64,000 nt of DNA from Alphaproteobacteria bacterium (GTDB lineage Bacteria; Pseudomonadota; Alphaproteobacteria; Sphingomonadales; Sphingomonadaceae). Below the pieces are notes generated by a model. That model searched no databases. It was not told where the DNA came from and worked only from the letters and a program-made list of their open reading frames with translations. The translations under genes and the position numbers were made by a program. Of this stretch, positions 4,128 through 42,435 are shown in pieces (the stretch's first letter is position 1; each line of letters starts with the position of its first letter). The stretch spans positions 1-64,000 of the forward strand of contig JAUHWC010000006.1 in NCBI GenBank assembly GCA_030424845.1, in the 5' to 3' direction.

Positions 4128-4962
4128 CTATTCACGAAGTAGCACAAAAACAAGCATTCCCAAACCAACCAGCATGAACACCAGCGCCAGCACCAGCTTG
4201 TTGCGCCCCAGGAACTTTACCAGGCGATAGCTGATAGCGTTGGAATAGGTGGCGACGGGCAGACCGGCACGAAATGCCTCCACCTCCGCGATCAGCTCCG
4301 CAACCGAATGAGAGCGGGCGCCGGGCCTCCGATCCGCTGCCCGGGCCGCTATCGCTGACAGGTCCTTCCTGTTCTCCCCACCGACAAGCTCATGCAACAC
4401 CAGGCCCAGCGCATAGACAACAGGCAGGATGTTCAGGTCGGATGGATCGGCCCTTTTCAGCAAGGCAACGCCGAAATCGATGAGCTTCGCCTACCCGCCT
4501 TCCGTGACCAGCAGGTTTTCCATCGTCAGGTCTCGATGGACGACCATGCGGTGATGCGCATGGGCCACCGCCCCGCCGCCTGCAGGAACAGCGCCAGCCT
4601 GTTGTCCAGCGAAGGACTCTCGTCCTGCACCCAACTGCGCGGCGTGCGACCATCAACATATTCCAACGCGATGAAGGGATCGCCTCCGGCCGTGCGGCCA
4701 CTGTCAAGCAGGCGAGCAATATGCGGATGGTCAAGCCGCTTGAGGATCGCGCACTCCCGTTCGAACCGTCCGCCAGGTTGCCGGGGGACCCGGCAGGCCG
4801 CAGGATCTTGAGCGCCTCAAGCCCTGCCTCCTCGCTATCGCGATGAGCCAGGAACACCTCTCCCGACCCGCCCAGTGCCAAGCGCCGGACAAGGACGTAT
4901 CCCGGAAGCACCGGAAAGGCATTGTTGCGACCGCTATCCGGCCTGCGATCATCCCCAAACAT
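4128..4962 (-). pseudogene. Degenerate Ser/Thr protein kinase gene
   Basis: Pieces of a bacterial eukaryotic-like Ser/Thr kinase lie in different frames of the minus strand. The N-terminal piece has the glycine-rich loop (LALGGSGEVFLAH) and the VAIK-like lysine (EALKILR). After a frameshift near 4770 the next frame reads RFERECAILKRLDHPHIARLL and ALEYVDGR. A second frameshift near 4570 restores HRDLTMENLL, followed by an in-frame TAG and then LIDFGVALL. The part after DFG jumps almost directly to YALGLVLHELVGG, so most of the activation segment is missing. A C-terminal membrane helix (LVLALVFMLVGLGMLVFVLL) remains. Two frameshifts, a stop and a deletion make a working kinase very unlikely. 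Confidence 0.8.
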
Positions 4963-5045
4963 GGAGCAAGGCTCTAACAGCCCCGCGCCGTGTGTAAATC
5001 GCGACCAGGGACAGAAAGCCCCGAAATGGAGGCAGTTACGCCCTG

Positions 5046-6215
5046 CTAGACAGGCAAGCCGACGTAGTTTTCGGCAATCGTTGTCTGCGCTGCACGGCTG
5101 TTGGCGATATAATCCAGCTCCGCCACCTGCATTGCGCGTTCGAAAGGCCCGTCATCAGGGAAACGGTGCATCAGCTTGGTCAGCGACCAGCTGAACCGTT
5201 CGGATTTCCAGACGCGGGCCAGCGCGGTGTCGGAATAGGCCGCGATCGCATCATTGTCCGATTTTCCGAAGAAGCCGGTCAGCGCGGCAGCAGCATAGTG
5301 CACGTCGCTGGCGGCAAGGTTCAGGCCCTTGGCGCCGGTGGGAGGCACGATGTGGGCGCTGTCGCCACACAGCAGCAGCGATCCGTGGCGCATGGGCGCG
5401 AAGACATAGCTGCGGAGCGGGGCGATGCTCTTCTCCAGCGCCGGACCGCGGGTGATATTGGCGGCAGCTTCCGGGCCGAGGCGGATGACAAGCTCGTCCC
5501 ACAGGCGGTCGTCGCTCCATTCCTCCACCTTGTCGGTCAGCGGAACGTCGACGTAATAGCGGCTGCGAGTCTCGCTGCGCATGGAAGCCAGCGCGAAGCC
5601 GCGCTCGTGGTTGGCATAGATCAGTTCGTGGTTGCACGGGGGCACATCGGCTAGGATGCCCAGCCAGCCGAAAGGGTAGACCCGCTCGAATTCCTGTCCC
5701 ACGCTTGCAGGGATCGCCTTGCGGCTGGGGCCGTGGAAACCGTCGCACCCGACGACAAAGCGGCAGTCCACGCGGTGCTCCGCGCCGTCCTTGTGGTAGG
5801 TGACATAGGGCGCATCGCCCTCCACTTCATGCAGTGCCACGTGAGCCGCTTCATAGACCACTTCCAGCCCGCGTTCCTCGCTGGCATCCATCAGGTCCTT
5901 GGTAATCTCGGTCTGGCCGTAGACCATCACCCGGCTGCCGACGAGGTCCGCCATGTCGATACGGATCAACCTGTCACCGTCGGCAAGGTTGAAGCCATCA
6001 TGCCACATGCCTTCCAGCTTCATCCGGGCATCAAGGCCCAGGCGCTCCACCAGCTCGACGGTGATGGTTTCCAGAACGCCCGCGCGGATGCGGGTGAGCA
6101 CGTAGTCTCCCGTCTGGCGTTCCAGTACCACGCAATCGACGCCTTCCGCGCGAAGGAGGTGACCCAGAATCAGCCCGGCCGGGCCGGCACCGATGATGCA
6201 GACTTGCGTTTTCAT
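5046..6215 (-). CDS. pobA: 4-hydroxybenzoate 3-monooxygenase
   Basis: A 389-residue cytoplasmic FAD/NADPH hydroxylase that converts 4-hydroxybenzoate to protocatechuate, the entry to ring cleavage. The N-terminal dinucleotide-binding motif IGAGPAG lies at residues 8-14, the DG fingerprint (GCDGFHGPSR) near 158, and the second FAD motif (GDSAHIVPPTGAKGLNLA) near 285. This GAKGLN arrangement and the length (family about 394) are typical of PobA rather than of other flavin monooxygenases. It is divergent from an AraC-type gene of the PobR kind, as in many pob loci. No protocatechuate ring-cleavage genes lie in the window. Confidence 0.95.
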   Translation of the reverse strand: MKTQVCIIGAGPAGLILGHLLRAEGVDCVVLERQTGDYVLTRIRAGVLETITVELVERLGLDARMKLEGMWHDGFNLADGDRLIRIDMADLVGSRVMVYGQTEITKDLMDASEERGLEVVYEAAHVALHEVEGDAPYVTYHKDGAEHRVDCRFVVGCDGFHGPSRKAIPASVGQEFERVYPFGWLGILADVPPCNHELIYANHERGFALASMRSETRSRYYVDVPLTDKVEEWSDDRLWDELVIRLGPEAAANITRGPALEKSIAPLRSYVFAPMRHGSLLLCGDSAHIVPPTGAKGLNLAASDVHYAAAALTGFFGKSDNDAIAAYSDTALARVWKSERFSWSLTKLMHRFPDDGPFERAMQVAELDYIANSRAAQTTIAENYVGLPV

Positions 6216-7627: not shown

Positions 7628-8023
7628 TTAGCGCCGCGGATTGGCGGCAGCCGTGGCCGCGATATAGGCAGCAAGCTCGTCAATTTGCGCATCGGTCAGC
7701 TCACCCTTGCGGAACATTGGCATGGCACCACTGCCCCGGCGCAGGATCACCCGCAGGACCGGCGCTGGCAAGTCGCTGCGCAGTTCCAGTGGCCCGGGCC
7801 TGTCCCCGCCATATTTGGCATCGAGCGCCGCCGTGCCGGGCAAGGTGGGCGAGCCATCGTCCCCCGGCCCTGTTCCATGACAAGGCGCGCATTGCTGCTC
7901 GAACACCACGCGCCCGGGCACTTCCGGCCGCTCGATATCTGCCGCGATGCCTTGCGCCAGTGCGGCGCTGCCGGCCAACGCGCCCACGCCAAAGACGATG
8001 GCAAGCGAAGCCTTCACGCTCAC
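7628..8023 (-). CDS. Class I cytochrome c, flavocytochrome partner (module 1)
   Basis: A 131-residue exported monohaem cytochrome c. Residues 1-24 are a Sec-type signal peptide ending ALAQ. The haem motif CAPCH is at residues 45-49, and the likely axial Met is M101 in GAMPMF. It overlaps the stop of the preceding flavoprotein gene by 4 bp (ATGA), so it is probably the electron-accepting subunit, as PchC is for p-cresol methylhydroxylase. Its middle (LPGTAALDAKY) resembles the other module 1 cytochrome (LAGTSSLAIKY) more than those of module 2. Confidence 0.9.
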   Translation of the reverse strand: MSVKASLAIVFGVGALAGSAALAQGIAADIERPEVPGRVVFEQQCAPCHGTGPGDDGSPTLPGTAALDAKYGGDRPGPLELRSDLPAPVLRVILRRGSGAMPMFRKGELTDAQIDELAAYIAATAAANPRR

Positions 8024-9633
8024 GCCCGGAACCTCCGCGGCCAGATACCGCCCCTACCCGGAGCGATGATGCCATCAGGGTCGATCGCGTCCTTCAACTG
8101 CTCGTGGAAACGGCGCAGGATGTGGTTGTTGAAGCTGTAGGTGTTCGACACATCGTCCTGGTAGATCGGTGCCGCGCGATAATCGCCCCAGCCATGCTCT
8201 GCCGCCACGGCAACGCACTTCTTCATCGATGCATGGGTGATCGCGTTGTGCTGCGGATCGTCATGCTTGATCGAGGGCGCGAAAACCATCTGGAAGGTGT
8301 GCGTATGCCAGAACAGGGGCATGGTCAGCGCGTTGAAGAAGGGCGGCAGCGTGGGAAATTCCTTCATCGCATCGCCCAGCACGCGTTGCACCTCGAATAC
8401 CGCCTCCCCCGTGCGCGGCAGCACGGGGAAGAAGCCGACGTGGCCATCATCGCGCACGATCTTCCACGCGCCAAGGCTTGGCACCCCCAATGAGCGGCGG
8501 CGCTTGATGCTGGTTTGCCACGGCTGCGTTGTGTTGTTGAGTTGGTCTTCGCTGGCGGGAAGCGTGAAATGGTCGCCATCCACGGCTGCCGCACCCGGAA
8601 TATCGGACAGGATACGGTCCTTGGCGTAATTCCAGTTCTCCAACGTCGCCTTTTGCGGACCGAAGAACTGCAACTCCACCTGGAAGCTAGGCAACCCTGC
8701 CGCGCTGGCAGCCGCATCCATCTCGGCGTCAGAAGGTCCGCCCGTCTTGGTAGCGAGTACGAAGAAGTCCGGATTACCCATCAATGCGGACAGCGGGGAA
8801 CCGTACTCGACCTCACCGATCAGCCCGCTGTCGGACAGGAAATTGACATGGTTCACCAGCTTGATGAAGTCCCGCCGGCGCGGCACGGTGATCAGGCCGG
8901 TGCGGTAATATTCGGGCATCGGCATCAGGCGGAAACCCATCTTGGTCACCACCCCGAAATTGCCTTGCGCGAACAGGCCGGCCGGATCCGGCCCGAAGCC
9001 ATAGGGATATTCCTGCCAGGTTTCCGACCCGGGCAGCGCGCCCATGCCGGTGCGCATGATCTCGCCATCGGGCAGCACCACTTCCATCCCGCAATGCGCG
9101 CCGAAATGATCGCGGAAATGCGGCATGGTATAGCCGACACCGCGTTCCAGTGAGTTGCCGATGGGGCTGCCCCAACCCGGATCCGGGCAATCCAGCATTA
9201 CCTTGTTGCCCGTGGCATCCACCGCGCGCTGCAGGTCGAAGTAGGATACGCCGGGTTCGACGAGGCAGTAATTGCGGTCCGTGTTCACCTCGATCACGCG
9301 GTTCATGCGCTTGAGGTCCAGCACGACCGAGCCGTTCACATTGGGTGACGGGCCGCCATAGCCGAAGTTCTTGCCGGTGGAGATCGGGTAGAGCGGCACG
9401 CGGTGCTTGCGGGCGATCTTCACCACGGCGCTGACCTGCTCGACATCCTCGGGTGCTACGGCAGCGGAGGCGTGGCGTTCTTCCGCGGTATTCCAGACAG
9501 GGCTGAAGCTGTCGCGATAGGGGAACATGTCCGCGTCGCCCGACCATACCCAGTCCGCGCCCACCGCGCCGCGCAACTCTTCAAGGAATGCGGCGAAGCT
9601 GGCCGAATCGATATCGGGAGGAAGCACGCTCAT
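8020..9633 (-). CDS. VAO/PCMH-family flavoprotein subunit (module 1, distal)
   Basis: A 537-residue FAD enzyme of the vanillyl-alcohol oxidase/4-cresol dehydrogenase family (FAD_binding_4 then FAD-oxidase C domain), oxidising para-substituted phenols. By eye against VAO: Y92 in GKNFGYGG matches Tyr108, D151 in CPDPGWGS matches Asp170, the His of DDGHVGFF matches the flavin-linking His422, and GDYR matches Tyr503/Arg504 that bind the phenolate. There is no signal peptide, although its cytochrome partner is exported. It follows a Tat-signal protein with a 4-bp overlap, the order of pchC-pchX-pchF. Substrate is unknown (alkylphenol, vanillyl or coniferyl type likely). Confidence 0.9.
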   Translation of the reverse strand: MSVLPPDIDSASFAAFLEELRGAVGADWVWSGDADMFPYRDSFSPVWNTAEERHASAAVAPEDVEQVSAVVKIARKHRVPLYPISTGKNFGYGGPSPNVNGSVVLDLKRMNRVIEVNTDRNYCLVEPGVSYFDLQRAVDATGNKVMLDCPDPGWGSPIGNSLERGVGYTMPHFRDHFGAHCGMEVVLPDGEIMRTGMGALPGSETWQEYPYGFGPDPAGLFAQGNFGVVTKMGFRLMPMPEYYRTGLITVPRRRDFIKLVNHVNFLSDSGLIGEVEYGSPLSALMGNPDFFVLATKTGGPSDAEMDAAASAAGLPSFQVELQFFGPQKATLENWNYAKDRILSDIPGAAAVDGDHFTLPASEDQLNNTTQPWQTSIKRRRSLGVPSLGAWKIVRDDGHVGFFPVLPRTGEAVFEVQRVLGDAMKEFPTLPPFFNALTMPLFWHTHTFQMVFAPSIKHDDPQHNAITHASMKKCVAVAAEHGWGDYRAAPIYQDDVSNTYSFNNHILRRFHEQLKDAIDPDGIIAPGRGGIWPRRFRA

Positions 9634-10031
9634 GCCGTCACGCTCGGATGCACGGGTGCGATCACCCAGCTGACGGGATAGACGCCGCGCTCGTTCTTTT
9701 CGCCCAGTTGCTGCTGGCTCACAACCCGCCGGCCGTGCTGCTGCGCCAGCACCTCCAGCACGAACAGCGCATCACTGCCGGTAATGCCGCCCAGCACATA
9801 GCCGCGCCGGCGCCACGCATGATCGAGCGTGTCGAACCACGGCCTAGTCACGTCGCCGGCAAAGCGGATTGCCGTAATGGCGGCATGTTCGGCGGGCAGG
9901 TTCTCGACATAGCGTGTATCGAGCAGGAAGGCATCGAGGCCTTGCGGCGCACGGGCGAAGGCTGCTTGCGAGCTTGCGGCAATGGCGGGAACGACAACAC
10001 CCCACTTGATCGCTTCACGACGGGTAATCAC
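9630..10031 (-). CDS. Small Tat-signal protein, PchX-like position
   Basis: A 133-residue protein starting with a twin-arginine signal (MITRREAIKWGVV) followed by a hydrophobic stretch ending AAFARA. The mature part of about 105 residues matches no family I can name. It overlaps both neighbours by 4 bp and sits between a cytochrome and a flavoprotein gene, the place of pchX in Pseudomonas pch operons. It shares pattern with the Tat protein at 38626-39015 (Asp-Arg near the start of the mature part, a Trp, then a GG-x-G segment and a Q(Q/Y)G motif). A role in carrying or maturing the signal-less flavoprotein is inference. Confidence 0.8.
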   Translation of the reverse strand: MITRREAIKWGVVVPAIAASSQAAFARAPQGLDAFLLDTRYVENLPAEHAAITAIRFAGDVTRPWFDTLDHAWRRRGYVLGGITGSDALFVLEVLAQQHGRRVVSQQQLGEKNERGVYPVSWVIAPVHPSVTA

Positions 10032-10474
10032 TGGTCACCTCCTGCCTGGGCGCGGGCTTCGGCGGCCTTGCGGACCATTTCTTCTGCCAGCAGTTCGGCA
10101 TGCGCGCCGCGATCTTCCAGCGGCGCGGTAAGATAGGCGCTGAGCGCGGCAAGCTGCCCATCGCTGATCTCTGTCGGTCGGAAGGGCGGCATCCATGCCA
10201 CGCCATTGCGAACGAAAACCCCGATCACCGGAGCGGACAGGTCCGTCCGGTCTTCCAGGGCGGCAGGGATGTCCGTCCCCTGGTACTTGATTGCCAGGCT
10301 GGACGTGCCAGCGAGGCTGGGCACGGCTGCATGGCATGGCGCGCACCAGTGGGCATAGATCGCCTTGCCTTCCTGCAGTTCGGGCGCGGTCGGGCCGGTG
10401 CGGGCGTTGTCCTGCGCCCTGGCCACCCCGAAAGCGAGTGTTCCGGCAAGAACCGCCAGTGCAAGATACTTCAT
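10028..10474 (-). CDS. Class I cytochrome c, flavocytochrome partner (module 1)
   Basis: A 148-residue exported monohaem cytochrome c. The start ATG at 10474 is chosen because GGGAGGGG precedes it and because it overlaps the upstream flavoprotein stop (ATGA). Residues 1-20 are the signal peptide. CAPCH is at 44-48 and the likely Met ligand is M95 in AWMPPF. It carries an extra C-terminal tail of about 30 Ala/Glu/Arg-rich residues not present in the other three cytochromes of this type. It should take electrons from a VAO-type flavoprotein and pass them to the respiratory chain. Confidence 0.9.
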   Translation of the reverse strand: MKYLALAVLAGTLAFGVARAQDNARTGPTAPELQEGKAIYAHWCAPCHAAVPSLAGTSSLAIKYQGTDIPAALEDRTDLSAPVIGVFVRNGVAWMPPFRPTEISDGQLAALSAYLTAPLEDRGAHAELLAEEMVRKAAEARAQAGGDQ

Positions 10475-12060
10475 GCGCCCCTCCCTTCGCGAAGATGCCG
10501 GGGCCATACGCCATAGCGCCCGGCGGACAGGATACCCTTGGGATCGAGCGCATCCTTGATCTGCTCGTTAACCCGCCGCAGCTTGTTGTCGCCGAAGCTG
10601 TAGGCATCCATCACCGCATCCATGAAGGCGGGCGGGCAGCGGTATTCGCCCCACCCGTGATCAGCGCAAATATCGATGATCTCGGTCACGCTTTCGCGCA
10701 GGTGCTGGTTGCGTGCAGGATCCTTGTAGACCGGCACGGCGGCAAACAGCACGAAGCTGCGCGTCCAGCAGGTGACGCTCGGCACGAACATGAACAGGTC
10801 CAGCCCCAGCCGCTCGCACTCGCGGCGCATCACGCGGTTCGCTTCGATGATGCCCTTGCCCGAACGCGGGATCACGGCGGAAAACCAGATATGCCCGTCA
10901 CTGGGGTTGAAGTCCCCGAAACCGCGGCTGCCGACGCTGAAGATCTCCAGCGAAGGGATGCCGTAACGCGGCTTCTGCACCCGCTCCAGCGTGGGCGGAT
11001 CGATCGGGAAGCGTACAGGCTCTGCCGCCCCGAACTTCACGTCGGCGAAATGGGCAAAGCGTTCCTGCACATATTCCCATTGTGCGCGGATGACCTTTTC
11101 CGGTCCGTAGAAATTGAACGAGGCGCGCCATGCCGGAAGGCCGCTTTCCCGCACCATGCGGTTGAACTCATCGGGTTCCGGCACGATCGACATCGCGATC
11201 GGGTTGTCCTGGTTGAGGACGGGCGAACCGATCCCCGGCATGCCGTTGAAGACATTGCCATATTCCAGTTCATTGAGCAGCTCCACCATCTCGTCGAGGT
11301 CTTCGAAACGGAACACGTCGACGGTGGCGGAAAGGTGCGCTTCGGGTTGCGGGAAAAGGTAGAAACCCATCTTGGTGACAACACCCAGCGAGGACTGGCG
11401 GAACAGCCCGTCAAGGCAAGGGCCGATCCCCATGCGGTATTGTTGCCAGGTTTCCGACCCGGGCAGCGCGCCCATGCCGGTGCGCAACAGCTCGCCATCG
11501 GCCATCACCGCCTCTATCCCGCAGACAGCTTCCCAGTGTCCGCGATAGCCGGCAGTGGTATAGCCGCCGCCGCTGTCCAGCGCGTTGCCTACCAGCGATC
11601 CCCAGCCCGGATCAGGGCAGTCGATCCACAGCTTGGAACCGGTTTCCTGCAAGTGGCGGTACATGTCGAAATAGGACACCCCCGGCTCGACAAGGCATGA
11701 GCAGTTCCCCTCGTTCACGTCGAGGATGCGGTTCATCCGCTTCAGGTCCAGCACCACGCTGCCGCTGAGCACCGGTGCCGCCCCGCCATAGCCGAGGTTG
11801 CGCCCGGTGGAGATGGGGTAGAGCGGGATCGAGCGCTCGTTGGCCGCGCGGACGATCGCCTGCACTTGCTCCACATTGGCGGGGGCGATGGCGGCCGATG
11901 CCTTCTTCTCCTCGGGCTCGCCCCAGAGGACGGAATAGAAGTCACGATAGGTGTTGAGGTCGGCCGGCTGGTCAAAGACCCATTCATCACCCACGACGGA
12001 GCGCATTTCCGCCAGCCCGTCAGCAAACGTAGCATCACTCATGCCCGGTGGTGTGGTCAT
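10471..12060 (-). CDS. VAO/PCMH-family flavoprotein subunit (module 1, first gene)
   Basis: A 529-residue paralogue of the flavoprotein at 8020-9633 and the first gene of module 1. By eye against VAO: Y91 in GRNLGYGG, D150 in CPDPGWGS (Asp170 position), the His of SDGHIWFS (His422 position) and GEYR near the C terminus (Tyr503/Arg504) are all kept, so it should be catalytically active with covalently bound FAD. It has no signal peptide. A 43-bp stretch is identical to the downstream paralogue. The gap to the TetR gene holds a strong palindrome, so the module is probably TetR-controlled. Function: oxidation of a 4-hydroxyphenyl compound; substrate unknown. Confidence 0.9.
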   Translation of the reverse strand: MTTPPGMSDATFADGLAEMRSVVGDEWVFDQPADLNTYRDFYSVLWGEPEEKKASAAIAPANVEQVQAIVRAANERSIPLYPISTGRNLGYGGAAPVLSGSVVLDLKRMNRILDVNEGNCSCLVEPGVSYFDMYRHLQETGSKLWIDCPDPGWGSLVGNALDSGGGYTTAGYRGHWEAVCGIEAVMADGELLRTGMGALPGSETWQQYRMGIGPCLDGLFRQSSLGVVTKMGFYLFPQPEAHLSATVDVFRFEDLDEMVELLNELEYGNVFNGMPGIGSPVLNQDNPIAMSIVPEPDEFNRMVRESGLPAWRASFNFYGPEKVIRAQWEYVQERFAHFADVKFGAAEPVRFPIDPPTLERVQKPRYGIPSLEIFSVGSRGFGDFNPSDGHIWFSAVIPRSGKGIIEANRVMRRECERLGLDLFMFVPSVTCWTRSFVLFAAVPVYKDPARNQHLRESVTEIIDICADHGWGEYRCPPAFMDAVMDAYSFGDNKLRRVNEQIKDALDPKGILSAGRYGVWPRHLREGRGA

Positions 12061-12871: not shown

Positions 12872-14494
12872 GTGCCTTCAGAGCAGTACGACTACGTGAT
12901 CGTTGGTGCAGGTTCGGCCGGCTGCGTGCTGGCGGCCAGGCTGAGCGAGGATCCGGACAATTCGGTGCTGCTGGTGGAAGCCGGCAAGCGCGCGCGTGAC
13001 CCGCTGCTGACCATTCCCATCGCCTTCCCGCTGGTGATGAACAAGCCTGCCTACAACTGGGCCTATACCGGCGAGGAGGAACCCTTTGCCGACAACCGCC
13101 GGCTGAACCAGCCGCGCGGCAAGGCCCTGGGCGGTTCATCGATGATCAACGGCATGCTCTATGCCCGCGGCAACGCCCGCGATTACGACGAGTGGCGCCA
13201 GCTCGGTTGCGAGGGCTGGAGCTATGACGACGTGCTGCCCTATTTCCGGAAGTCGGAAAACCATTGGGGCGATGCAGACCGCTATCACGCCAAGGGCGGG
13301 CCGCTGTCGATTACCAAGCACATTCCGGACGACGTGCTGTTTCCGCGCTTCATCGAGGCTGCGAAGAAGATCGGCCACAAGACCCAGGCCGACCATCACG
13401 GCCCGGACCAGGAAGGCTGGGGATCGCCCGATATCTCGATCCACAAGGGCCGCCGCGGCTCTACCTATGCCCGTTTCCTGAAACCGGCGATGGCCCGTTC
13501 CAACCTGACGGTCATCTCCGAAGCCCATGCCACGAAAGTGGAAGTGGAGAACGGCCGCGCCCGCGCCCTGCATTACCGCCAGGTCGGACAGGACAAGCGG
13601 GTTGTGGCGACGCGGGAAATCATCCTGTCGGGCGGCACCTTCAATTCTCCGCAACTGCTGATGCTGTCCGGCATCGGCCCTGCCGACGAACTGCGCGAAT
13701 TGGGAATTGACGTGGTGTGCGACCTGCCCGGCGTGGGCCGCAACATGCAGGACCATCCCTCTATCGCGATGATCTGGAATGCCGAGCGCGAGGCAACGCT
13801 CAATCCCGACCTCCGGATGGACCGGATCGCCATGCAGGGCCTGAAATGGATGCTGACCGGAAAAGGTCGGCTGGCCAACATGCCGGTAACCGCCAATGGC
13901 TTCATCAAGACACGGCCCGAGCTGGAACGGCCCGACGGGCAATTCCTGTTGCAGCCGACCACCATCTTCGCGCGCCCCTGGTTCCCGCTGATCCGCCCGG
14001 TTTCGCCGGATGTCATCGCCATGGCCTGCGTGCTGCTGCGCCCGCAAAGCCGGGGCTGGGTGAAGCTGCGCAGCGCCGATCCCTTTGCCGCACCGCGCAT
14101 CCTCAGCAACGTGCTGAAGGAACAGGCGGACCGCGACTTCTTCCGCCGCGCGGTAGACATGCTGCGCGATCTCTTCGCCACTTCGCCGCTTACTGAAGTG
14201 GTCAAGAACGAAGTGATGCCCGGGGCCAATGTGCAGAGCGACGAGGCGTTCGCCGCGTGGCTCCGCACCGCAACCAACACCGCCATGCACCCCACCAGCA
14301 CCTGCGCCATGGGCATTGGCGAGGAGGCGGTCTGCGATCCGCAATTGCGCGTGCGCGGGATTTCCGGCCTGCGGGTGGCGGATGCTTCCGTGATGCCGCG
14401 CATCGTCGGCGGCAACACCAATGCCGCGGCCATCATGATCGGCGAGAAGGCGGCTGAGCTCGTGCTGGGCAAGACGGCGGCAGAAGCGGCATGA
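12872..14494 (+). CDS. GMC family oxidoreductase
   Basis: A 540-residue FAD-dependent glucose-methanol-choline family alcohol dehydrogenase. The start GTG at 12872 is chosen because AGGAGAGAGAGG lies just before it. The N-terminal FAD motif is [16 protein letters not shown], followed by GKALGGSSMINGM. The catalytic His is in the HPTSTCAMG segment and its Asn partner in GGNTNAAAIM near the C terminus. No signal peptide. It overlaps the next GMC gene by 4 bp and is followed by an aldehyde dehydrogenase, suggesting alcohol-to-acid oxidation of an aromatic side chain. In Sphingobium SYK-6 a GMC pair (PhcC/PhcD) oxidises a phenylcoumaran alcohol; equivalence here is inference. Confidence 0.9.
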   Translation: MPSEQYDYVIVGAGSAGCVLAARLSEDPDNSVLLVEAGKRARDPLLTIPIAFPLVMNKPAYNWAYTGEEEPFADNRRLNQPRGKALGGSSMINGMLYARGNARDYDEWRQLGCEGWSYDDVLPYFRKSENHWGDADRYHAKGGPLSITKHIPDDVLFPRFIEAAKKIGHKTQADHHGPDQEGWGSPDISIHKGRRGSTYARFLKPAMARSNLTVISEAHATKVEVENGRARALHYRQVGQDKRVVATREIILSGGTFNSPQLLMLSGIGPADELRELGIDVVCDLPGVGRNMQDHPSIAMIWNAEREATLNPDLRMDRIAMQGLKWMLTGKGRLANMPVTANGFIKTRPELERPDGQFLLQPTTIFARPWFPLIRPVSPDVIAMACVLLRPQSRGWVKLRSADPFAAPRILSNVLKEQADRDFFRRAVDMLRDLFATSPLTEVVKNEVMPGANVQSDEAFAAWLRTATNTAMHPTSTCAMGIGEEAVCDPQLRVRGISGLRVADASVMPRIVGGNTNAAAIMIGEKAAELVLGKTAAEAA

Positions 14495-16134
14495 GCGCCT
14501 TCGACTACATCATCGTCGGCGCGGGCTCTGCCGGCTGCGTGCTGGCCAATCGCCTGACGGAGGACCCGGAAACCCGCGTCCTGCTGATCGAGGCGGGCGG
14601 CAGCCACAAGCATTTCCTGCTGGATATACCGCTGGGTATGCTCAAAGCGATGCTGCGTCCGGAATTCGGCTGGGGCTACATGTCGGAACCGGAACCGCAC
14701 CTGGACAATCGCAAGTTGATGGTGCCGCGCGGCAAGGTGTTGGGCGGATCGTCATCGATCAACGGCATGTTCTACATGCGCGGCCATTCGCGCGATTATG
14801 ACGAATGGCGGCAGATGGGCTGCGACGGGTGGAGCTATGCCGACATCCTACCCTATTTCAAGCGCATGGAAGACAGCTGGCGCGGTGCCGGCCCCTATCA
14901 CGGCGAAGGCGGCCCGCTGAGCGTCGTGCCCGTGCAGGGCAAGCACCTGCTGCACGAACCGCTGATGCAGTCTGCCGAGGCGGCCGGCTTCAATACCTCC
15001 GACGATCTCAGCGCCGAAGTGCAGGAAGGTTTCGCCAAGGGGGAACTGACGATCGACCGCAGGGGCCGGCGTGCCAGCACCGCCCGCGCCTATCTCGATC
15101 CCGTCATGCATCGCCCGAACCTGACCGTGATCACGCAGACGGCAACGCAGCGCGTGGTGATGGACGGCAAGCGCGCGACCGGCGTGGAAGTGCTGCGCGA
15201 TGGCCAGCGCCAGCTGATCACGGCAAGGCGCGAGGTGATCCTGTGCGGCGGCGCCTACAACTCCCCGCAACTGCTGATGCTGTCCGGCATCGGCCCGGCC
15301 GCACATCTGCGCGACAAGGGGATTGACGTGGTTCACGACCTTCCCGGCGTGGGCCGCAACCTTTCCGAACACCCACGGGTGCCGGTGCAGTTTGCCCTCA
15401 CCAAGCCCGTCAGCTTCCTCAACCAGCTGCGGGCAGACCGCGTGGCGCGCTGGGTGCTGCAATGGAAACTTGCCGGTACCGGTGCCTTTGCCAGCCAGCT
15501 CAACAGTTGCAACATCGTGGTCAAGACCCGGCCGGAACTGGACAAGCCGGACATCCAGCTGTTTTCCAATCCCGTGCGCATGGATGCGCAGATCTGGTTC
15601 CCCCTCTGGCGCAAGAAGCAGCAGGACGTGATCACGGCGGACGTGATCCTGCTCCACCCCAACAGCCGTGGCTGGATGGAATTGCGCTCCAACGACCCGG
15701 CAGACAGTCCGGCGGTTACCTTCAACAACTTCTCCGATCCGGCTGACTGGCGCACCGCGCGTGATGGCATCCGCCTCGTCCGCAGGATCTATCGCAGCGG
15801 TCCGCAAGGCGAGCTGACGGGCGATGAACTGGTGCCCGGCGCACACCTCGAAAGCGACGAGGAACTGGACAGCCACATCCGCGCCACGGCGCAGGTGACG
15901 CAGCACCCCGTGGGCACCTGTTCGATGGGCCGGGGATCGATGAGCGTGGTCGATCCGCAGCTTCGCGTGCACGGGCTGGAAGGCCTGCGCGTTGTCGATG
16001 CCTCCATCATGCCAACCGTTCCCGGCGGCAACACCAATGCCCCCGTCATCATGGTGGCCGAGAAGGCTGCCGACATGATCCGCGGCAAGCCCGCATTGCC
16101 CGCCGAACATCCCGAAACCCCACAAGCAGCCTGA
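14491..16134 (+). CDS. GMC family oxidoreductase
   Basis: A 547-residue second GMC-family flavoenzyme, translationally coupled to the first by an ATGA overlap. FAD motif [19 protein letters not shown] at the N terminus, then [18 protein letters not shown]. Catalytic His in HPVGTCSMG and Asn in [10 protein letters not shown]. It is clearly a paralogue of the preceding gene but only moderately similar. A tandem GMC pair followed by an aldehyde dehydrogenase fits enantiomer-specific or sequential oxidation of an alcohol side chain. Quinone or another membrane carrier is the usual electron acceptor for such dehydrogenases; the acceptor here is unknown. Confidence 0.9.
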
Positions 16135-36481: not shown

Positions 36482-36826
36482 TCAGTTGCGGTCTTCCAGC
36501 CAGTTCGCCAGCGCCTCCAGCTCCTCGTCCGTCAATTCGGCCGGGGTGAACTGGGGCATTGCGCCAATCCCGCGCCTGACCACGAAGGCAGTGTAGGCGG
36601 GAGGCAGGTTCACCCTGTCCAGCAAAGCCGCTTCACCCTCGGGCATGCGCCGGGCCAAGGCACGCGTTCCCCAGCCGCCATCGTCATGGCAGTAGGCGCA
36701 ACGGCTGGCGAATATCGTTTCGGGCGAACGGGCTGCCTCGCTGGCGGACTGGACCGCTGCAGGCGTTGCGGCAGCGAGCACGGGAGCGGCAAGCCATAGG
36801 AAACGGTTTGGACGCTCCGGCCTCAT
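36482..36826 (-). CDS. Class I cytochrome c, flavocytochrome partner (module 2)
   Basis: A 114-residue exported monohaem cytochrome c. A Sec signal ends near residue 27 (AVQSA). CAYCH is at 43-47 and the likely Met ligand is M90 in GAMPQF. It overlaps the preceding flavoprotein stop by 4 bp. Its sequence after the haem (GGWGTRALARRMPEGEA) parallels the other module 2 cytochrome (GGFGTRVLSRRVPEGQA), so the two form one subfamily. Expected role: electron acceptor for the flavoprotein. Confidence 0.9.
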   Translation of the reverse strand: MRPERPNRFLWLAAPVLAAATPAAVQSASEAARSPETIFASRCAYCHDDGGWGTRALARRMPEGEAALLDRVNLPPAYTAFVVRRGIGAMPQFTPAELTDEELEALANWLEDRN

Positions 36827-38388
36827 TGCCCTTCCTCCTCCTTGTCGTTCCAGCTGCCGATACCCTGCTTGCCGGGAGCAAGGATGCCGTTGGGATCCAG
36901 CGCCGCCTTGATGCGATTGTTGAGCTTGGGCAGGGCGTGATCACCCCAGCCATGCATGGCAACCGCATCATCCATGAAGCGCAGGTGCGTGCGATAGAGA
37001 CCGATACCGATCCCGGTCATGTCCGCGCAAAGCTGGCGAAACAACCTGCGGCATCGCTCGGTCTCTTCAGCGTCAGTGCGAGTGTAGAACATGTCAGCCA
37101 CGAAGATCAGCGCGCGGCTGGAGATGCCGAACATGCCGATCCACGGGTCCTTGCCATATTCCAGGAAACGCCTTTCGATGATCGCATAGACTTCTTCCGC
37201 GCGGTCACCCAGCGGCGCGACGATCGGTCCGAAATCGCTATGACCGCCGGGATTGCCGCCCCAGTCGACCACGCCCAGCGGGGCAAGGCTGACGTCCTGG
37301 CGCATCCAGCTTTCCTTGGGTTGACCTTGCTCCCAACGTCGCACTTCGATGGTGGCGCCGGGAATATTCTGGGAGAAGGCCTGGCGGATCTTTTCCAGCC
37401 TAAGGTCAAGGCCGGCCGGACTGTCGAACAGGTTGAAGATGACGCTCCACCAGCCCTGCCCGCGCTCGGCCAGAAGTTCCTCCATCCGCTCGCGAGAAAT
37501 TGCACCGGGGCCGTCCCACACCTCGCTGCGGACACGGCCTCCGGTGATCTGCCGCCAGCCATTGGCGATGGTATAGGGCGCGTTGATCACATCTGTCATG
37601 CGCAAGGGACGCAGGGTGTCGATCAGGGCGCGGAAATCCCCGCGATCGGGAATCCGGATGGAAACCCCGGCCATTCCCTCCGGTTCGGGCATCAGGCACA
37701 GGCCCATCTTGGTAACGATGCCGAAGTTCGACTGGGTGAACATCCCGTCAAGGCCGGGACCGAACGGCCAGCGATAGGCCTGCCATTCGCGCGTCCCTTC
37801 CACTGCGCCCAGTCCAGTGCGCACCAGCGAGCCGTCAGCCAGCATCACTTCCATACCGCAGATCGTCTCAGCGTGCTGGCCATAGGGTGTGTAACCGACA
37901 CCATGTTCCAGGGCATTGCCGATGACACTGCCCCAGCTGTGCGACGGGCCGGACATCCAGAGCCCCGATTGCCTGCGGTCGAGCTCAGCCTTGAAATCGA
38001 AGAAGCTGACACCTGGTTCCACCACCGCCGTACCCATTTCCTCGTCGATCTCGAGGATGCGGTTCATGCGCTTCAAGTCGAGGATCACGGATCCCCGCAT
38101 TTCCGGCGCGGCAGTGCCATAGGCAAGGTTCTTGCCCATCGAGATCGGCCAGAGCGGAACCCTGTAGCGGTTGGCGATCTCCAGGATCTTGCGACAATCC
38201 TCGACGCCCGATGGAGCAAGCGCGGCAGAACTGGCATGATCGTCCTGGTCACCGATATCGAAGGGATCGAGATAACTCGCCCGGTCGGCATCGGAGGTAA
38301 AGACCCACTGCGGGCCGATGGCGGCCCGGAACTCCGCCAGCGCCTGATCGAAGGTTTCTTGCGTCAATCCCGGGGGCAGCACACTCAT
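36823..38388 (-). CDS. VAO/PCMH-family flavoprotein subunit (module 2, distal)
   Basis: A 521-residue member of the vanillyl-alcohol oxidase/4-cresol dehydrogenase family, counted from the ATG at 38388. By eye against VAO: Y90 in GKNLAYGT (Tyr108), a His in PGGHSDFG (His422, the flavin link) and GLYRTH (Tyr503/Arg504) are kept, but the Asp170 position is S149 in SGPSHSWGS. Asp170 controls flavin reactivity and water attack in VAO, so chemistry or substrate may differ from module 1. No signal peptide. It follows two Tat-signal genes and is coupled to a cytochrome gene. Confidence 0.9.
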   Translation of the reverse strand: MSVLPPGLTQETFDQALAEFRAAIGPQWVFTSDADRASYLDPFDIGDQDDHASSAALAPSGVEDCRKILEIANRYRVPLWPISMGKNLAYGTAAPEMRGSVILDLKRMNRILEIDEEMGTAVVEPGVSFFDFKAELDRRQSGLWMSGPSHSWGSVIGNALEHGVGYTPYGQHAETICGMEVMLADGSLVRTGLGAVEGTREWQAYRWPFGPGLDGMFTQSNFGIVTKMGLCLMPEPEGMAGVSIRIPDRGDFRALIDTLRPLRMTDVINAPYTIANGWRQITGGRVRSEVWDGPGAISRERMEELLAERGQGWWSVIFNLFDSPAGLDLRLEKIRQAFSQNIPGATIEVRRWEQGQPKESWMRQDVSLAPLGVVDWGGNPGGHSDFGPIVAPLGDRAEEVYAIIERRFLEYGKDPWIGMFGISSRALIFVADMFYTRTDAEETERCRRLFRQLCADMTGIGIGLYRTHLRFMDDAVAMHGWGDHALPKLNNRIKAALDPNGILAPGKQGIGSWNDKEEEGQ

Positions 38389-38410: not shown

Positions 38411-38629
38411 TCAGGGGAATTCGGGATGCCATGCCGGCGGAATGCTGGCAGGCTTGCGACGGGCTGCCGCCACCGGCAGCGCTCCCTTTCCCCAGAAAGA
38501 CAGCCCCCAGACCTCGCCAACGCAGTCAACCTGCGCGGCCGGTTGTGCAAGGATCGGCGCGGAATGGAGAGCGGTCAGCACCGGCAGGCCGGCGCAACCG
38601 GCTATGAATGTGCGGCGGTTGAGTTTCAT
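38411..38629 (-). CDS. Very small Tat-signal protein in module 2
   Basis: A 72-residue protein with a clear twin-arginine signal (MKLNRRTFIAG) and a hydrophobic stretch ending ILAQP, leaving only about 43 mature residues (CVGEVWGLSFWGKGA, then a Pro-rich tail). Its ATG overlaps the upstream Tat gene stop (ATGA). No family is recognised. It lies between the larger Tat protein and the flavoprotein gene, so it may act with them in export or assembly. A one-Cys mature part could be functional or incidental. Real gene status is supported by signal and coupling. Confidence 0.65.
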   Translation of the reverse strand: MKLNRRTFIAGCAGLPVLTALHSAPILAQPAAQVDCVGEVWGLSFWGKGALPVAAARRKPASIPPAWHPEFP

Positions 38630-39015
38630 GTGATGCTCCAATGGCGCAAGGCACCTCCGGCGGCCCCTGGCAGAAGTTGCCCATCCCCGATGCTGGATAG
38701 GCCGTACTGCCTGGCGAAAGTCTCGCAGATGAAGCGGTCGGACCACAAGGTAGCGCCCGCGATGCCGCCGCCTCTCTTCAGCAATTCCGGGATATGCTCG
38801 CGCCACGCAATGCCGAGGTCATCCTTACGCGGGTCAAGGATCTCAACCCCGCGATCGCGCCACCCATCGGCAAGCTCGCGCGAGGCGGCGAAGCGCGCGT
38901 CATGGATGAATACAGCGGGCTTGAAGCCTTGCGCCCGCAGGGCTGAAGGCATGGCGCCGAGCGCGGCAAGCGCAACCCCGCCCTTGAGCAGCATGCGGCG
39001 ATTACTGCGGATCAT
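38626..39015 (-). CDS. Small Tat-signal protein, PchX-like position
   Basis: A 129-residue protein with a twin-arginine signal (SNRRMLLKGG at residues 4-13) and a hydrophobic run ending ALRAQ. The mature part (AVFIHDARFAASRELADGW, GGGIAGATLWSDRF, FARQYG) lines up in outline with the Tat protein of module 1 at 9630-10031. It overlaps its neighbours by 4 bp and sits between a cytochrome and a flavoprotein gene, as pchX does. It may be an escort that brings the signal-less flavoprotein out through Tat, or an assembly factor for the flavocytochrome; this is inference. Confidence 0.8.
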   Translation of the reverse strand: MIRSNRRMLLKGGVALAALGAMPSALRAQGFKPAVFIHDARFAASRELADGWRDRGVEILDPRKDDLGIAWREHIPELLKRGGGIAGATLWSDRFICETFARQYGLSSIGDGQLLPGAAGGALRHWSIT

Positions 39016-39344
39016 CGGCGTTTCTCCAGATAGTCGGCAATCGCTTGCAGCTCGGCATCACTGAGCTCGGCGGGGCGGATCTGCGGCATGGAGCCGATTC
39101 CCCGGCGCACTACCGTGGTTGTGAAGCTGGCCGGCAGCACCTCGCGCCTTTCCAGTTCGGCCTGCCCTTCGGGGACTCGGCGGGACAGGACGCGCGTGCC
39201 GAAACCGCCTTCCAGATGGCATGCACCGCAGCGTTCGAGGAACAGTTCCTGCCCGGATCTGCCGTCTTCCGCCTGTGCCCCTTGCGTTACGGCGAGCGCG
39301 CCGGCGATTGCCAACAGCGGGGCAGTGCAGACCAGCGCCCTCAT
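39012..39344 (-). CDS. Class I cytochrome c, flavocytochrome partner (module 2)
   Basis: A 110-residue exported monohaem cytochrome c. Signal peptide to about residue 25 (QGAQA). CGACH is at 39-43 and the likely Met ligand is M86 in GSMPQI. It overlaps both neighbours by 4 bp: flavoprotein upstream and Tat protein downstream. Closest relative in the window is the cytochrome at 36482-36826. Expected to receive electrons from the coupled VAO-type flavoprotein. Confidence 0.9.
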   Translation of the reverse strand: MRALVCTAPLLAIAGALAVTQGAQAEDGRSGQELFLERCGACHLEGGFGTRVLSRRVPEGQAELERREVLPASFTTTVVRRGIGSMPQIRPAELSDAELQAIADYLEKRR

Positions 39345-40882
39345 GATTGCGCCTCCCGGTAGGCCCGCGGCCAGATACCCATCTTTCCCGGCGCGATGAT
39401 GCCGTGCGGATCGACCGCGTCCTTCACCGTTTCATTCCAGCGGCGCAACGCACCGTTGTTGTAGTCATAGGTGCGGGCCACCTCGTCATAGAAAAGCGTA
39501 TGGGTACGGTATTCGCCCCAACCGCGCGAAGCGGCCGTCGCAATCAGGTCACTGAACAGCCGGTTGGCCCGCGCGGTCATGTCCTCGTCATTGCGGTTGA
39601 ACACGATCATGCTGATGTGGTTGAGATAACGCTGGCCAGCCGTGAAACCGCCGTAGTAGTCGAAACCGGCATCCTCATACATGCCGCGAACGGTGGTATA
39701 TTGCTCCCAGGCCTCCGCCCCTGAAAAGGGCGACACGGGCGAGAATGTCAGATGGCCGCCGGGACCACCCAGCCAGTCCACAACCCCCAGCGCCGCCAAT
39801 GTCGGGGTCGGCGATCCCGAGCCACGCAAGGGTTCGCCGCGATGCCATTCGGAAAGCTGGAATTCATATGGCAGGTGAGCAAAGGCGCGCTTCACCTTCT
39901 CGGCATTGATCTGGTTGATCGCCTTGTCACCGAACAGGCGGATGGAAAAGTTCCAGTGCCCCACGCCGGCCTGCTCCCGCGCCTGGTCTAGGATATCGGC
40001 AGGGATCGGCCCGCTGCCCTGGTAATACTCGCTGCGCGGTGCGCGCACGGCGAGGTTGCGGATGATGTTGCCGAAGCTGGGATTGGCCTGAACGGTTCCA
40101 TCCAGCTTGAGTGGCCGCAGGGCATCGACACCCAGGGGAAGATCCTCGACCCGGTCGAACGACATGGCAAGGTTCAGAGTATGCTCCGGCTCCGGCATCA
40201 GCCAGATACCCATCTTGGTGGCGATGCCGAAGTTCGATTGCATGAAGGCGCCATCCCAGGACGGACCAAAGCCGTAGGGGAACAATTGCCAGGTCTTGGC
40301 GCCTTCCAGCGCCCCCATGCCGGTGCGCAGCAATTCGCCGGTGCCAGTCACGACTTCGAGGCCGCAGACCTTGGAGGCATGCTCGCCATAAGGCGTGTAT
40401 CCCACGCCGCGTTCCAGCGCGTTGCCCAGAACGCTGCCCCAGGTGTGGGCTGGAGCGGAGATCCACAGCGGAATGTCGTTGTCGACCAGGTAGTGATAGA
40501 GATCATCGAAACCCACGCCGGGCTCGACCACGGCATATCCCATTTCGGCATTGACCTCGAGGATGCGGTTCATGCGGACAAGGTCCAGCATGACGACTTC
40601 AGAAGTACGCGGGGCGGAGCCGCCATAACCGAAGTTCTTGCCGCGGCTGATCGGCCAGAGCGGGACGCCGAGCTCACCGGCAACGCGAACGATTGCCTGC
40701 ACTTCATCGACGCTGGCAGGAGCAACTGCGCCGCGCGGTGCATAGGACATGGGATCGCGCGGTGCCATCGCGTCCTTGTACCCATGCGCGGCATCATCAC
40801 CGCGCCAGACGTGCTCCTCCCCCACGATAGCCGCAAAGCGGACCATCGCCTGCTCCAGCCGGGAAGCATCAATCACAATCAT
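39341..40882 (-). CDS. VAO/PCMH-family flavoprotein subunit (module 2, proximal)
   Basis: A 513-residue VAO-type FAD enzyme, started at the ATG at 40882 because it overlaps the stop of the carotenoid-oxygenase gene (ATGA). By eye against VAO: Y86 in GKNFGYGG (Tyr108), His of PGGHLTFSPV (His422) and GEYRTH (Tyr503/Arg504) are kept, but the Asp170 position is A145 in SAPAHTWGS. No signal peptide. Its coupling to a lignostilbene-dioxygenase-type gene suggests both act on the same 4-hydroxyphenyl compound series. Substrate unknown. Confidence 0.9.
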   Translation of the reverse strand: MIVIDASRLEQAMVRFAAIVGEEHVWRGDDAAHGYKDAMAPRDPMSYAPRGAVAPASVDEVQAIVRVAGELGVPLWPISRGKNFGYGGSAPRTSEVVMLDLVRMNRILEVNAEMGYAVVEPGVGFDDLYHYLVDNDIPLWISAPAHTWGSVLGNALERGVGYTPYGEHASKVCGLEVVTGTGELLRTGMGALEGAKTWQLFPYGFGPSWDGAFMQSNFGIATKMGIWLMPEPEHTLNLAMSFDRVEDLPLGVDALRPLKLDGTVQANPSFGNIIRNLAVRAPRSEYYQGSGPIPADILDQAREQAGVGHWNFSIRLFGDKAINQINAEKVKRAFAHLPYEFQLSEWHRGEPLRGSGSPTPTLAALGVVDWLGGPGGHLTFSPVSPFSGAEAWEQYTTVRGMYEDAGFDYYGGFTAGQRYLNHISMIVFNRNDEDMTARANRLFSDLIATAASRGWGEYRTHTLFYDEVARTYDYNNGALRRWNETVKDAVDPHGIIAPGKMGIWPRAYREAQS

Positions 40883-42435
40883 GCGCCGCGGCTCCAAGTC
40901 GGCACCCAGTTGCCATGGATCTGCTGCGGGGCCTTGAACGGCAAGCGTACGCGGGCAACCGGCCCATCCGCCAGCCTGGCCGTGTCGCCGATGACCAGTT
41001 CACTCTTCATCGTGTCGTAATTGGTGGCCAGCGCCATCACCCAGCCATCGGCTTCTGGCGCATCCGGGCTGCGCGGGGCGAAGGCGATCTCCTGCAAGCC
41101 ATACTCCGGACCGGCGAACATCACATCGACCTCGCCTGTGGCGAAATCGAACCGGCCGAAGCTGTTGGTCGGCCGTCGCCCTGTTCCGGTGAATGCCTGG
41201 AACTCGTCGGAAAAGCTCAGCAGGCCGTATCGGAAATCATGCCCCATAAACCGGTCGTCAACCCGGCTCAGCGCTCCCGGCTTGTCCTGGAAGCGCAATT
41301 CCTCGCGCCATCCATTGTCCCGGCCGTTCATGTCCATGGTGTAGCGACGGATTGTGGTCCGAGCAGCCGCAGGATCGAAAGGCTTGCCATGCACATCGGG
41401 GAAGAAGGGAAATGGATTGCCGTCGGAAACCGCCGCATCCAGCGTGATCACGCCATCCTTGTCGCTTGCCGCAAAGGTGTGGACCATCGCCATTTGGGGG
41501 CCTTCGAACCAGCGGATGTCGGACGCATCACCATTTCGCGGCAGAACGCCGATATGGCTGGGAACGCTCGTATCCCAGCCCCAATGCACTTTGCCCTCAC
41601 GCAAGCGCTCCATGCTGGAAACCATGCCGTAGACCGGGATCAGGATATAGTTCTGCGAGATGGCGATATCATGCACCATCGAAAGGTATGGTGCGGGCAG
41701 CTTGCGCTCGCTGGTTACCGTCCCGTTGGCATCGATCGTGTATATCCAGATGGCATTGCTCGCCAGGCCCTCGGCCTCATAGCCGTAGGTGATCATTTCA
41801 CCTGTGCGACCATCGACCTTGGGGTGGGCTGTGAACGTCGGGGCCTTGTAGTCACCCCCGAAATCATGAAACCCCCGCGTATCAAGCGTGTCCGGGTCCA
41901 TTTCCATCGGCAGGGCATCTTCCTTCAGCGCCAGCAGCTTGCCCGCGAAGTAGATGACATTGGTGTTCGATACGGTGTCGTGATTGTTGAACTTGCCCTC
42001 CATCTCCGGCTCGTGGGTGAAGGGATTGCGGTAATATCCGAAGAGCTGGCGGCGGGCGGCCTTGTTGGCGAGATAGCGAGGTGTCTCGATATAGCGTGCA
42101 GTGAAGTCGCAGCAGCCATCGGCGATGTGGAAAGCGGTGATCATGCCATCAGCGGCAAAGGGTGAATCGTCAGGGAACTTCGGCGGATAGAACCATTCCG
42201 CACAAGCCCGATAGAAGGTGCCGTTGAGATCGGCGGGAATGGCCCCCACCACTTCGCAATCGAAAACGCTGGAATCGAAGCGCGCCGGCTCGAAATCGCC
42301 CTGCAGGGCGGGGTGATCCGCATAGGATAGTGCCAATATAGAATGCGGGTGTTGGCCCGCCCCTCCCTCTCGCCATGGTAAGGCGTGTCCGCATGAGCCC
42401 AAGCCTGTTGCTGCCGCAGGCTGAGAGACACGCAT
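40879..42435 (-). CDS. Carotenoid oxygenase family protein, lignostilbene-dioxygenase-like
   Basis: A 518-residue non-haem iron dioxygenase of the carotenoid cleavage family. Four iron-ligand His are seen in TAHPKVD, SMVHDIA, AMVHTFA and, at the C terminus, QQIHGNW. The LLALKEDALP segment carries the Lys that stilbene-cleaving members use to bind the 4-hydroxyl group, so lignostilbene or another 4-hydroxystilbene is a likelier substrate than a carotenoid. The product would be aromatic aldehydes. The ATG at 42435 is used; the first 30 residues are not conserved-looking, so a later start is possible. First gene of the module 2 operon, divergent from a MarR gene. Confidence 0.88.
   Translation of the reverse strand: MRVSQPAAATGLGSCGHALPWREGGAGQHPHSILALSYADHPALQGDFEPARFDSSVFDCEVVGAIPADLNGTFYRACAEWFYPPKFPDDSPFAADGMITAFHIADGCCDFTARYIETPRYLANKAARRQLFGYYRNPFTHEPEMEGKFNNHDTVSNTNVIYFAGKLLALKEDALPMEMDPDTLDTRGFHDFGGDYKAPTFTAHPKVDGRTGEMITYGYEAEGLASNAIWIYTIDANGTVTSERKLPAPYLSMVHDIAISQNYILIPVYGMVSSMERLREGKVHWGWDTSVPSHIGVLPRNGDASDIRWFEGPQMAMVHTFAASDKDGVITLDAAVSDGNPFPFFPDVHGKPFDPAAARTTIRRYTMDMNGRDNGWREELRFQDKPGALSRVDDRFMGHDFRYGLLSFSDEFQAFTGTGRRPTNSFGRFDFATGEVDVMFAGPEYGLQEIAFAPRSPDAPEADGWVMALATNYDTMKSELVIGDTARLADGPVARVRLPFKAPQQIHGNWVPTWSRGA

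Follow-up and report, generated by a model that had tools for sequence, protein, structure and literature searches.

We analysed a window of 64,000 nucleotides (the whole stretch, positions 1 to 64,000 of contig JAUHWC010000006.1) from a bacterium of the Sphingomonadaceae. It carries two gene modules for flavoproteins (F) and c-type cytochromes (C), each of which also encodes a small protein (T) with a twin-arginine translocation (Tat) signal. We consider it likely that T, with the PchX protein included, is a Tat 'hitchhiker' escort that brings the folded flavoprotein to the periplasm. We also lean, somewhat less firmly, towards a wider reading: a previously unnamed Tat escort family, to which the pchX product would belong, would export cytochrome-linked flavoproteins of the VAO/PCMH family across Pseudomonadota and on a Campylobacterota plasmid. 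It would be an independent invention of hitchhiker export; some lineages would have the Tat signal on the flavoprotein and no escort, and a second small Tat protein of module 2 (T2b) would be a minimal version, with a Tat signal and a short conserved tail. Both modules lie on the minus strand in the core order F-C-T-F-C (Table 1). No signal peptide was seen on any of their four flavoproteins (F1a, F1b, F2a and F2b); here and elsewhere, signals were called by sequence inspection and a simple motif-plus-hydropathy rule. The Tat component gene tatC is present in the window's genome.

A family of small Tat proteins beside VAO/PCMH flavoproteins

A T profile was built from 25 small Tat proteins, with T1 and T2a of the window among the seeds. 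Among 6590 frames in 84 loci it found 67 matches, and each of them had a flavoprotein on its own strand no more than 450 nt away. An N-terminal twin arginine (RR) followed by a hydrophobic stretch was present in 64 of the 67, and the three matches without the standard signal read KR (locus L016), read DRR (L057) or were a frame-broken piece. As a control on 80 named loci, we compared called small genes by position: 35 of the 90 near a flavoprotein on its strand carried an RR signal, versus 14 of the 255 others. When 246 genomes of the order were searched, 36 T matches were obtained at E ≤ 1e-8, at least five of which (T1, T2a, L011, L056 and L122) belong to the profile, with at most 15 candidates scored per genome. 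For 35 of these matches a PCMH-like flavoprotein is no more than 0.6 kb away, in one case on the opposite strand, and the one without such a neighbour is L193; of the 35, 34 were placed by coordinate comparison and one (G222:C6) by reading the locus. The weaker matches (E ≥ 1.9e-5) numbered 28, and 26 of them align with the profile no further than position 66, a region that is mainly signal peptide. Furthermore, a search of 349 genomes of the phylum found T in seven (E ≤ 1e-6), each time together with the flavoprotein; the flavoprotein (query L009) was found in eight, and in the eighth (G326) a weak T match stands next to it. Pairs of flavoprotein and T with no adjacent cytochrome were also seen, at L033, L057, L064, L073 and L233 (all Burkholderiales) and at L203 and L205.

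The T family evolves fast, and the two arginines are the sole fully invariant columns among 36 aligned proteins. Beyond TAT_signal, no usable Pfam or NCBIfam match was found for T: seven Pfam families were matched by any of the 36 proteins at E ≤ 0.1, and these other matches were scattered and weak. In the structure predicted for T2a, the mature part forms an alpha/beta domain with block means of the predicted local distance difference test (pLDDT) mostly at 92-96 from residue 31 and at 75 for residues 111-120; a Foldseek search of this model against the PDB gave no match at E ≤ 0.001. T2b-like proteins, of about 57-72 aa with a Tat signal and a short GExWG tail, are kept in three genomes: that of the window, L012 (from 8254) and L126 (from 2082, minus strand).

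The sequence-only reading of the window had likened the modules to p-cresol methylhydroxylase loci by their cytochrome-Tat protein-flavoprotein order, and the likeness proved to go beyond gene order. The flavoprotein of L204 is closely homologous to PchF (it scores 937 bits against 1DII, the P. putida p-cresol methylhydroxylase structure), and upstream of it lie an RR small protein, a cytochrome and the end of a frame that by eye resembles an aldehyde dehydrogenase. This is the order of pchACXF, which we take to be the p-cresol operon of P. putida, with pchX as the presumed name of the small gene. The L204 small protein matches the T profile (E 1.6e-5). An RR small protein stands directly upstream in all five close PchF homologues and matches the T profile in four (not in L226); a cytochrome lies beyond it in four, and the L225 stretch contains no CxxCH. 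In addition, hhalign aligned the mature domain of a PchX-like set with that of the T family (E 2.5e-6, probability 89%). A PchX-like structure model made from five sequences had a mean pLDDT of 43, and the tie between PchX-like proteins and T is that of the profile matches. By these matches, proteins in the PchX position are homologous to T, and PchX would do the same escort job for p-cresol methylhydroxylase. Judged from the close PchF homologues, pchACXF shares with the window modules a signal-less flavin adenine dinucleotide (FAD) flavoprotein, a c-type cytochrome and a small protein. In contrast, the window modules have two F-C pairs that share one or two T genes in the order F-C-T-F-C, and three of their four flavoproteins are without the flavin-linking Tyr and His. 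In a literature search that left most subscription journals outside, we found no publication on pchX and none that tied p-cresol methylhydroxylase to hitchhiker or twin-arginine export.

Plasmid loci served as an outside check, and 16 of 34 matches were read. An RR small protein stands beside the flavoprotein or one gene away in 12 of the 13 Gram-negative loci; 10 of these 12 proteins match the T profile and two (L228 and L239) do not, and in the thirteenth locus, from Rhizobium (L241), both cytochrome and T are missing. Cytochromes are missing from the three Gram-positive loci, where the T profile gave no match, and no flavoprotein of the 16 loci carries a signal of its own. On a Sulfuricurvum plasmid, the gene between cytochrome and flavoprotein is annotated as a twin-arginine signal protein. 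At L235, one RR-containing frame lies opposite an annotated MarR gene.

Proposed export of the flavoprotein and the possible role of T

In the mechanism that we propose, the signal-less flavoprotein would fold around FAD in the cytoplasm, co-translated T would bind the folded protein, and the twin-arginine signal of T would take the F-T pair across the inner membrane via the Tat pathway. The cytochrome would travel separately through Sec, receive its haem in the periplasm and join the flavoprotein there. The enzyme would then oxidise 4-hydroxyphenyl (guaiacyl-type) compounds to quinone methides and pass the electrons to the cytochrome, so that each module would yield two flavocytochrome dehydrogenases and a small escort. 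The binding of T to F, the export and the substrates are what we infer from the sequences. A similar arrangement is described in the accessible text of PMC6719666, in which the gamma subunit of FAD glucose dehydrogenase is a Tat hitchhiker protein required for secretion of the catalytic subunit. Like T, this gamma subunit is a small Tat-signal protein serving an FAD subunit that passes electrons to a haem c subunit; in contrast, the flavoprotein is of another family (GMC), and gamma consists of five alpha-helices whereas T2a is predicted to be alpha/beta. None of the seven Pfam families matched by T proteins is a model for a small subunit of gluconate/glucose dehydrogenase; by this test, T would work like the FAD glucose dehydrogenase hitchhiker but is no member of that Pfam family.

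T and a Tat signal on the flavoprotein itself were not found together. Within the window's genome, the flavoproteins of L009 and L010 have their own Tat signal and no T, and the signal-less flavoprotein of L011 stands in an F-C-T unit. Among all loci with a CxxCH frame nearby and enough flank, T was present with 86 of 101 signal-less flavoproteins versus 0 of 9 own-signal flavoproteins (Fisher p 2.8e-7), under a cytochrome filter that is over-inclusive (at L060 it picked up a frame within the flavoprotein gene). When the cytochrome rule was tightened, the counts became 86 of 100 versus 0 of 8, and a stricter non-redundant set gave 72 of 85 versus 0 of 8, with a cytochrome detected in six of those eight by a filter that misses some cases, such as L040. 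Near-identical sequences were dropped from the counts, T-less rows too near a contig end were set aside (eight per count), and a limit of 450 bits excluded from the main counts the 463-aa FAD protein of L009, which is signal-less and distantly related (234 bits). Smaller FAD proteins of this kind, signal-less and of about 463-501 aa, come after the flavoprotein-cytochrome pair at some loci (L009, 8071-9462; L079, L083-L085, L087, L088, L090 and L091). The 13 non-redundant exceptions include L012 and L052, which have T elsewhere in the locus, L150, which has it on the other strand, and L145, which has an RR small protein outside the profile. On the tree, own Tat signals arose three times, and the own-signal L009 has a sister, L091, in which T directly abuts F. 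All seven rows with the oxidase residue pair Asp-Leu at flavin N5 are without cytochrome, T and signal.

Several observations weigh against the escort reading. At ten loci with flavoprotein and cytochrome, namely the nine other non-redundant exceptions and L040, no T could be found (L015, L017, L035, L040, L066, L081, L098, L134, L158 and L160; L098 is a short stretch), and there T may be unlinked or another export route may be used. Conversely, 17 signal-less flavoproteins have T and no cytochrome detected by the filter, plasmid loci L227 and L233 have T and no CxxCH on that strand, and a genome of the window's genus holds a T-like gene (L193, 6947-7525) with no PCMH-like flavoprotein nearby. 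An independent-pairs sign test for the absence of T beside an own signal was not significant (p 0.25-0.5), with just three origins. Six of the eight own-signal rows form one clade with the N5 pair Thr-Val, the same as in nsVAO, which the available part of PMC7617285 names an oxidase; this clade may differ in more than export. The seeds of the T profile were mostly picked for their RR signal, so that the conservation of RR is partly built in. The loci behind the 84-locus T counts, the substitution counts and the small-gene control were fetched for holding a flavoprotein, whereas the order and phylum searches for T used whole genomes. Finally, given its confidently folded predicted mature domain, T may do more than carry.

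Of the other explanations, the one that survives best, although we think it unlikely, is that T, rather than being an escort for export, is a periplasmic subunit or an assembly factor (for electron transfer, or for attaching haem or FAD). The confident alpha/beta prediction, the conservation of some D, G and W positions and the many loci where T adjoins the cytochrome gene (the commonest gene order, with 47 rows, was F-C-T) agree with such a role. However, no Cys or His position reaches 55% conservation in the aligned T proteins and, TAT_signal apart, the Pfam searches gave no domain beyond the scattered weak matches; T is also found with flavoproteins that have no flavin-linking residues, and it is absent beside own-signal flavoproteins even though the cytochrome stays.

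Export of the flavoprotein on the signal peptide of the cytochrome, with another job for T, is in our view improbable. The c-type cytochromes cross the membrane unfolded by Sec and have their haem added outside; therefore, a cytochrome could not carry a folded FAD protein. Nevertheless, this route is the published one for the bisphenol F hydroxylase BpfAB of S. yanoikuyae, which has a signal-less flavoprotein and a cytochrome as the window modules do: in the accessible text of PMC12724174, BpfB, the cytochrome, is predicted to have a signal peptide and BpfA, the flavoprotein, to have none, as in PchCF, and export is credited to the cytochrome signal. A bpf-like cluster on the S. yanoikuyae plasmid pF1 (L234) contains an RR-signal T gene (4549-5118) between the bpfB- and bpfD-like genes (cytochrome and hydrolase). 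It has the bpf gene order and F and C genes of the same lengths as bpf (1569 and 426 bp), and is a single F-C-T unit as opposed to the doubled modules of the window; the main text of PMC12724174 has no mention of an orf5017. If the cytochrome route were sufficient, one would not expect flavoproteins next to a cytochrome to have gained a Tat signal of their own on three occasions and to be without T in every case, and this route leaves unexplained both why T is present and why it is absent beside own-signal flavoproteins. It is more improbable still that the flavoproteins are cytoplasmic, as their lack of signal peptides might suggest, and that T is some other exported protein of the pathway, unrelated to them: the cytochromes that partner them look exported, p-cresol methylhydroxylase was reported to be periplasmic (Hopper 1985, as cited in the available text of PMC12724174), and T tracks the flavoprotein through unlike clusters (pch-like, bpf-like, LSD-linked and decarboxylase-linked, LSD being lignostilbene dioxygenase).

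Architecture and age of the two modules

All genes of both modules lie on the minus strand where the sequence-only reading had placed them, and its description of module 2 as the same order plus one extra small Tat protein was borne out, T2b being the extra gene. It had also given all joints but one as ATGA overlaps. Eight of the nine module-internal joints are indeed 4-bp overlaps, but only six read ATGA; C1a-T1 and F1b-C1b read GTGA, and the ninth joint, T2b-F2b, is a gap of 22 nt. The LSD-family gene upstream joins F2a through an ATGA overlap, which makes module 2 a seven-gene run. The N-terminus of C1a, examined by eye, is a hydrophobic, Sec-like stretch.

Table 1. Genes of the two modules and other features of the window
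Feature	Coordinates	Strand	Evidence
F1a, VAO/PCMH-type flavoprotein	10471..12060	-	PF01565; best PDB match 9h40 'p-cresol methylhydroxylase', 622 bits
C1a, c-type cytochrome, motif CAPCH	10028..10474	-	PF13442; sequence
T1, small Tat protein (MITRREAIKWG...), GTG start, proposed escort	9630..10031	-	T family profile seed
F1b, VAO/PCMH-type flavoprotein	8020..9633	-	PF01565; PDB 9h40, 496 bits
C1b, c-type cytochrome, motif CAPCH, GTG start	7628..8023	-	PF13442
RPE65/lignostilbene-dioxygenase (LSD)-family gene, upstream of F2a	40879..42435	-	PF03055
F2a, VAO/PCMH-type flavoprotein	39341..40882	-	FAD_binding_4, PDB match, residues
C2a, c-type cytochrome, motif CGACH	39012..39344	-	domain match, sequence
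T2a, small Tat protein	38626..39015	-	T family profile seed; predicted structure
T2b, second small Tat protein, 72 aa, GExWG tail	38411..38629	-	orthologues in two relatives
F2b, VAO/PCMH-type flavoprotein	36823..38388	-	FAD_binding_4, PDB match, residues
C2b, c-type cytochrome, motif CAYCH	36482..36826	-	domain match, sequence
Second RPE65/lignostilbene-dioxygenase-family gene	54628-56088		
GMC oxidoreductases, three	12872-14494, 14491-16134, 32976-34559		
Aldehyde dehydrogenase	16163-17677		

All four window flavoproteins contain FAD_binding_4 and match solved VAO/PCMH members end to end, which by sequence places them in the VAO/PCMH family; two other FAD_binding_4 genes of the window's genome (L001 and L002) matched the window proteins only weakly or over a short length. 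By alignment, the phenolate-binding Tyr/Tyr/Arg, which we take to be VAO Y108, Y503 and R504, is retained in all four. The nearest solved relative is 9h40 for F1a and F1b and the Marinicaulis vanillyl alcohol dehydrogenase (PMC7617285) for F2a and F2b. No publication on structure 9h40 was found, and 9H40 is absent from the accessible part of PMC7617285. F2a has both known flavin-linking positions filled (His and Tyr), and the alignment gave neither the His of oxidases nor the Tyr of dehydrogenases in F1a, F1b and F2b. Because a natural non-covalent member of the family is known (PMC7617285, available text), the missing residues do not exclude membership, and FAD is probably bound non-covalently in these three of the four. 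According to the same text, the dehydrogenase branch (PCMH/EUGH type) has Pro or Ile with a small residue at flavin N5, and the oxidases have Leu with an acidic residue. By alignment, the oxidase pair is present in none of the four window flavoproteins: F1a and F1b share the mixed pair Asp-Pro with the Marinicaulis dehydrogenase, F2a has Ala-His and F2b has Ser-His, the His of module 2 being absent from the published table (PMC7617285, as available). Each flavoprotein is adjoined by a CxxCH cytochrome gene, and with these cytochromes beside them we read all four as dehydrogenases.

As the sequence-only reading had noted, the cytochromes are closer within than across modules by BLASTP (C2a/C2b 51% and C1a/C1b 39-43% identical, versus 30-38% across), and the flavoproteins behave likewise (F1a/F1b 41% and F2a/F2b 40%, versus 32-36%). 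T1 and T2a are distantly related (29%, E 2e-4 when 11 proteins were searched). Three further genomes, L122 (same genus), L019 (a Sphingobium metagenome-assembled genome) and L133, have the best matches of the module 1 genes in F-C-T-F-C order, and in L133 the two cytochromes score about equally as the C1a match; therefore, the gene order of module 1 is not due to chance. In the tree, F1a and F1b each fall in their own four-row clade (window, L122, L019 and L133), both inside one 12-row clade. Single-copy relatives sit nearer to F1b than to F1a, and forcing the eight doubled-module proteins together, a group picked after the tree was seen, was rejected by the approximately unbiased (AU) test (p 0.02). 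Thus, F1a and F1b separated long ago. The best tree does not place F2a and F2b as sisters, yet their sisterhood was not rejected (AU p 0.165). Module 2 genes recur in two genomes, all of them in L012 (Alteraurantiacibacter buctensis) and all but C2b, which was not found, in L126 (same genus); in both, F2b is divergent from LSD-F2a-C2a-T2a-T2b, giving split transcripts. In L126 (2821-3948 and 4061-5719), F2a is without its N-terminal part and the LSD-family gene is in two pieces; either the genes are broken or the assembly is in error. The suggested origin of the modules by internal tandem duplication agrees with the within-module similarity and the shared 12-row clade; however, as the sole origin of the modules it is unsupported by the trees, the AU tests and the divergent transcripts of module 2.

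Substrates, surrounding genes and meaning

The four window enzymes probably oxidise lignin-type phenols outside the inner membrane. Because the LSD-family gene is coupled to it, module 2 probably has dimers derived from lignin or lignans as substrates, and the dioxygenase would cleave the stilbene-like products formed from them. A published counterpart is PinVW, a flavocytochrome of the pinoresinol pathway of Novosphingobium, which is proposed to form a quinone methide from a lignan-derived dimer ahead of a lignostilbene-dioxygenase homologue (PMC12607616 and PMC12997858, available text). By its published description, PinVW is a translationally coupled flavoprotein and cytochrome c, as in the window modules, whereas in module 2 the F-C pair is doubled and an LSD-family gene is coupled to it; 'Tat' and 'twin-arginine' are absent from the main text of PMC12607616. 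In addition to the genes at the foot of Table 1, the window holds three SnoaL-like and four DUF3237 genes, and by its gene content looks like a lignin-dimer catabolic island. The DUF3237 protein at 54015-54635 starts MIDRRHVLRGGAAAG, a Tat-like start.

p-Cresol methylhydroxylase has been reported to be periplasmic with a flavoprotein that has no signal peptide, and the accessible text of a 2025 paper credits the cytochrome signal (PMC12724174). If T and PchX are escorts, this would explain how the classic p-cresol enzyme reaches the periplasm. In the doubled module, a single escort gene may work for two enzymes. Furthermore, if the escort reading is true, omitting T in the biotechnological expression of phenol- or lignin-oxidising flavocytochromes could leave the enzyme in the wrong compartment.

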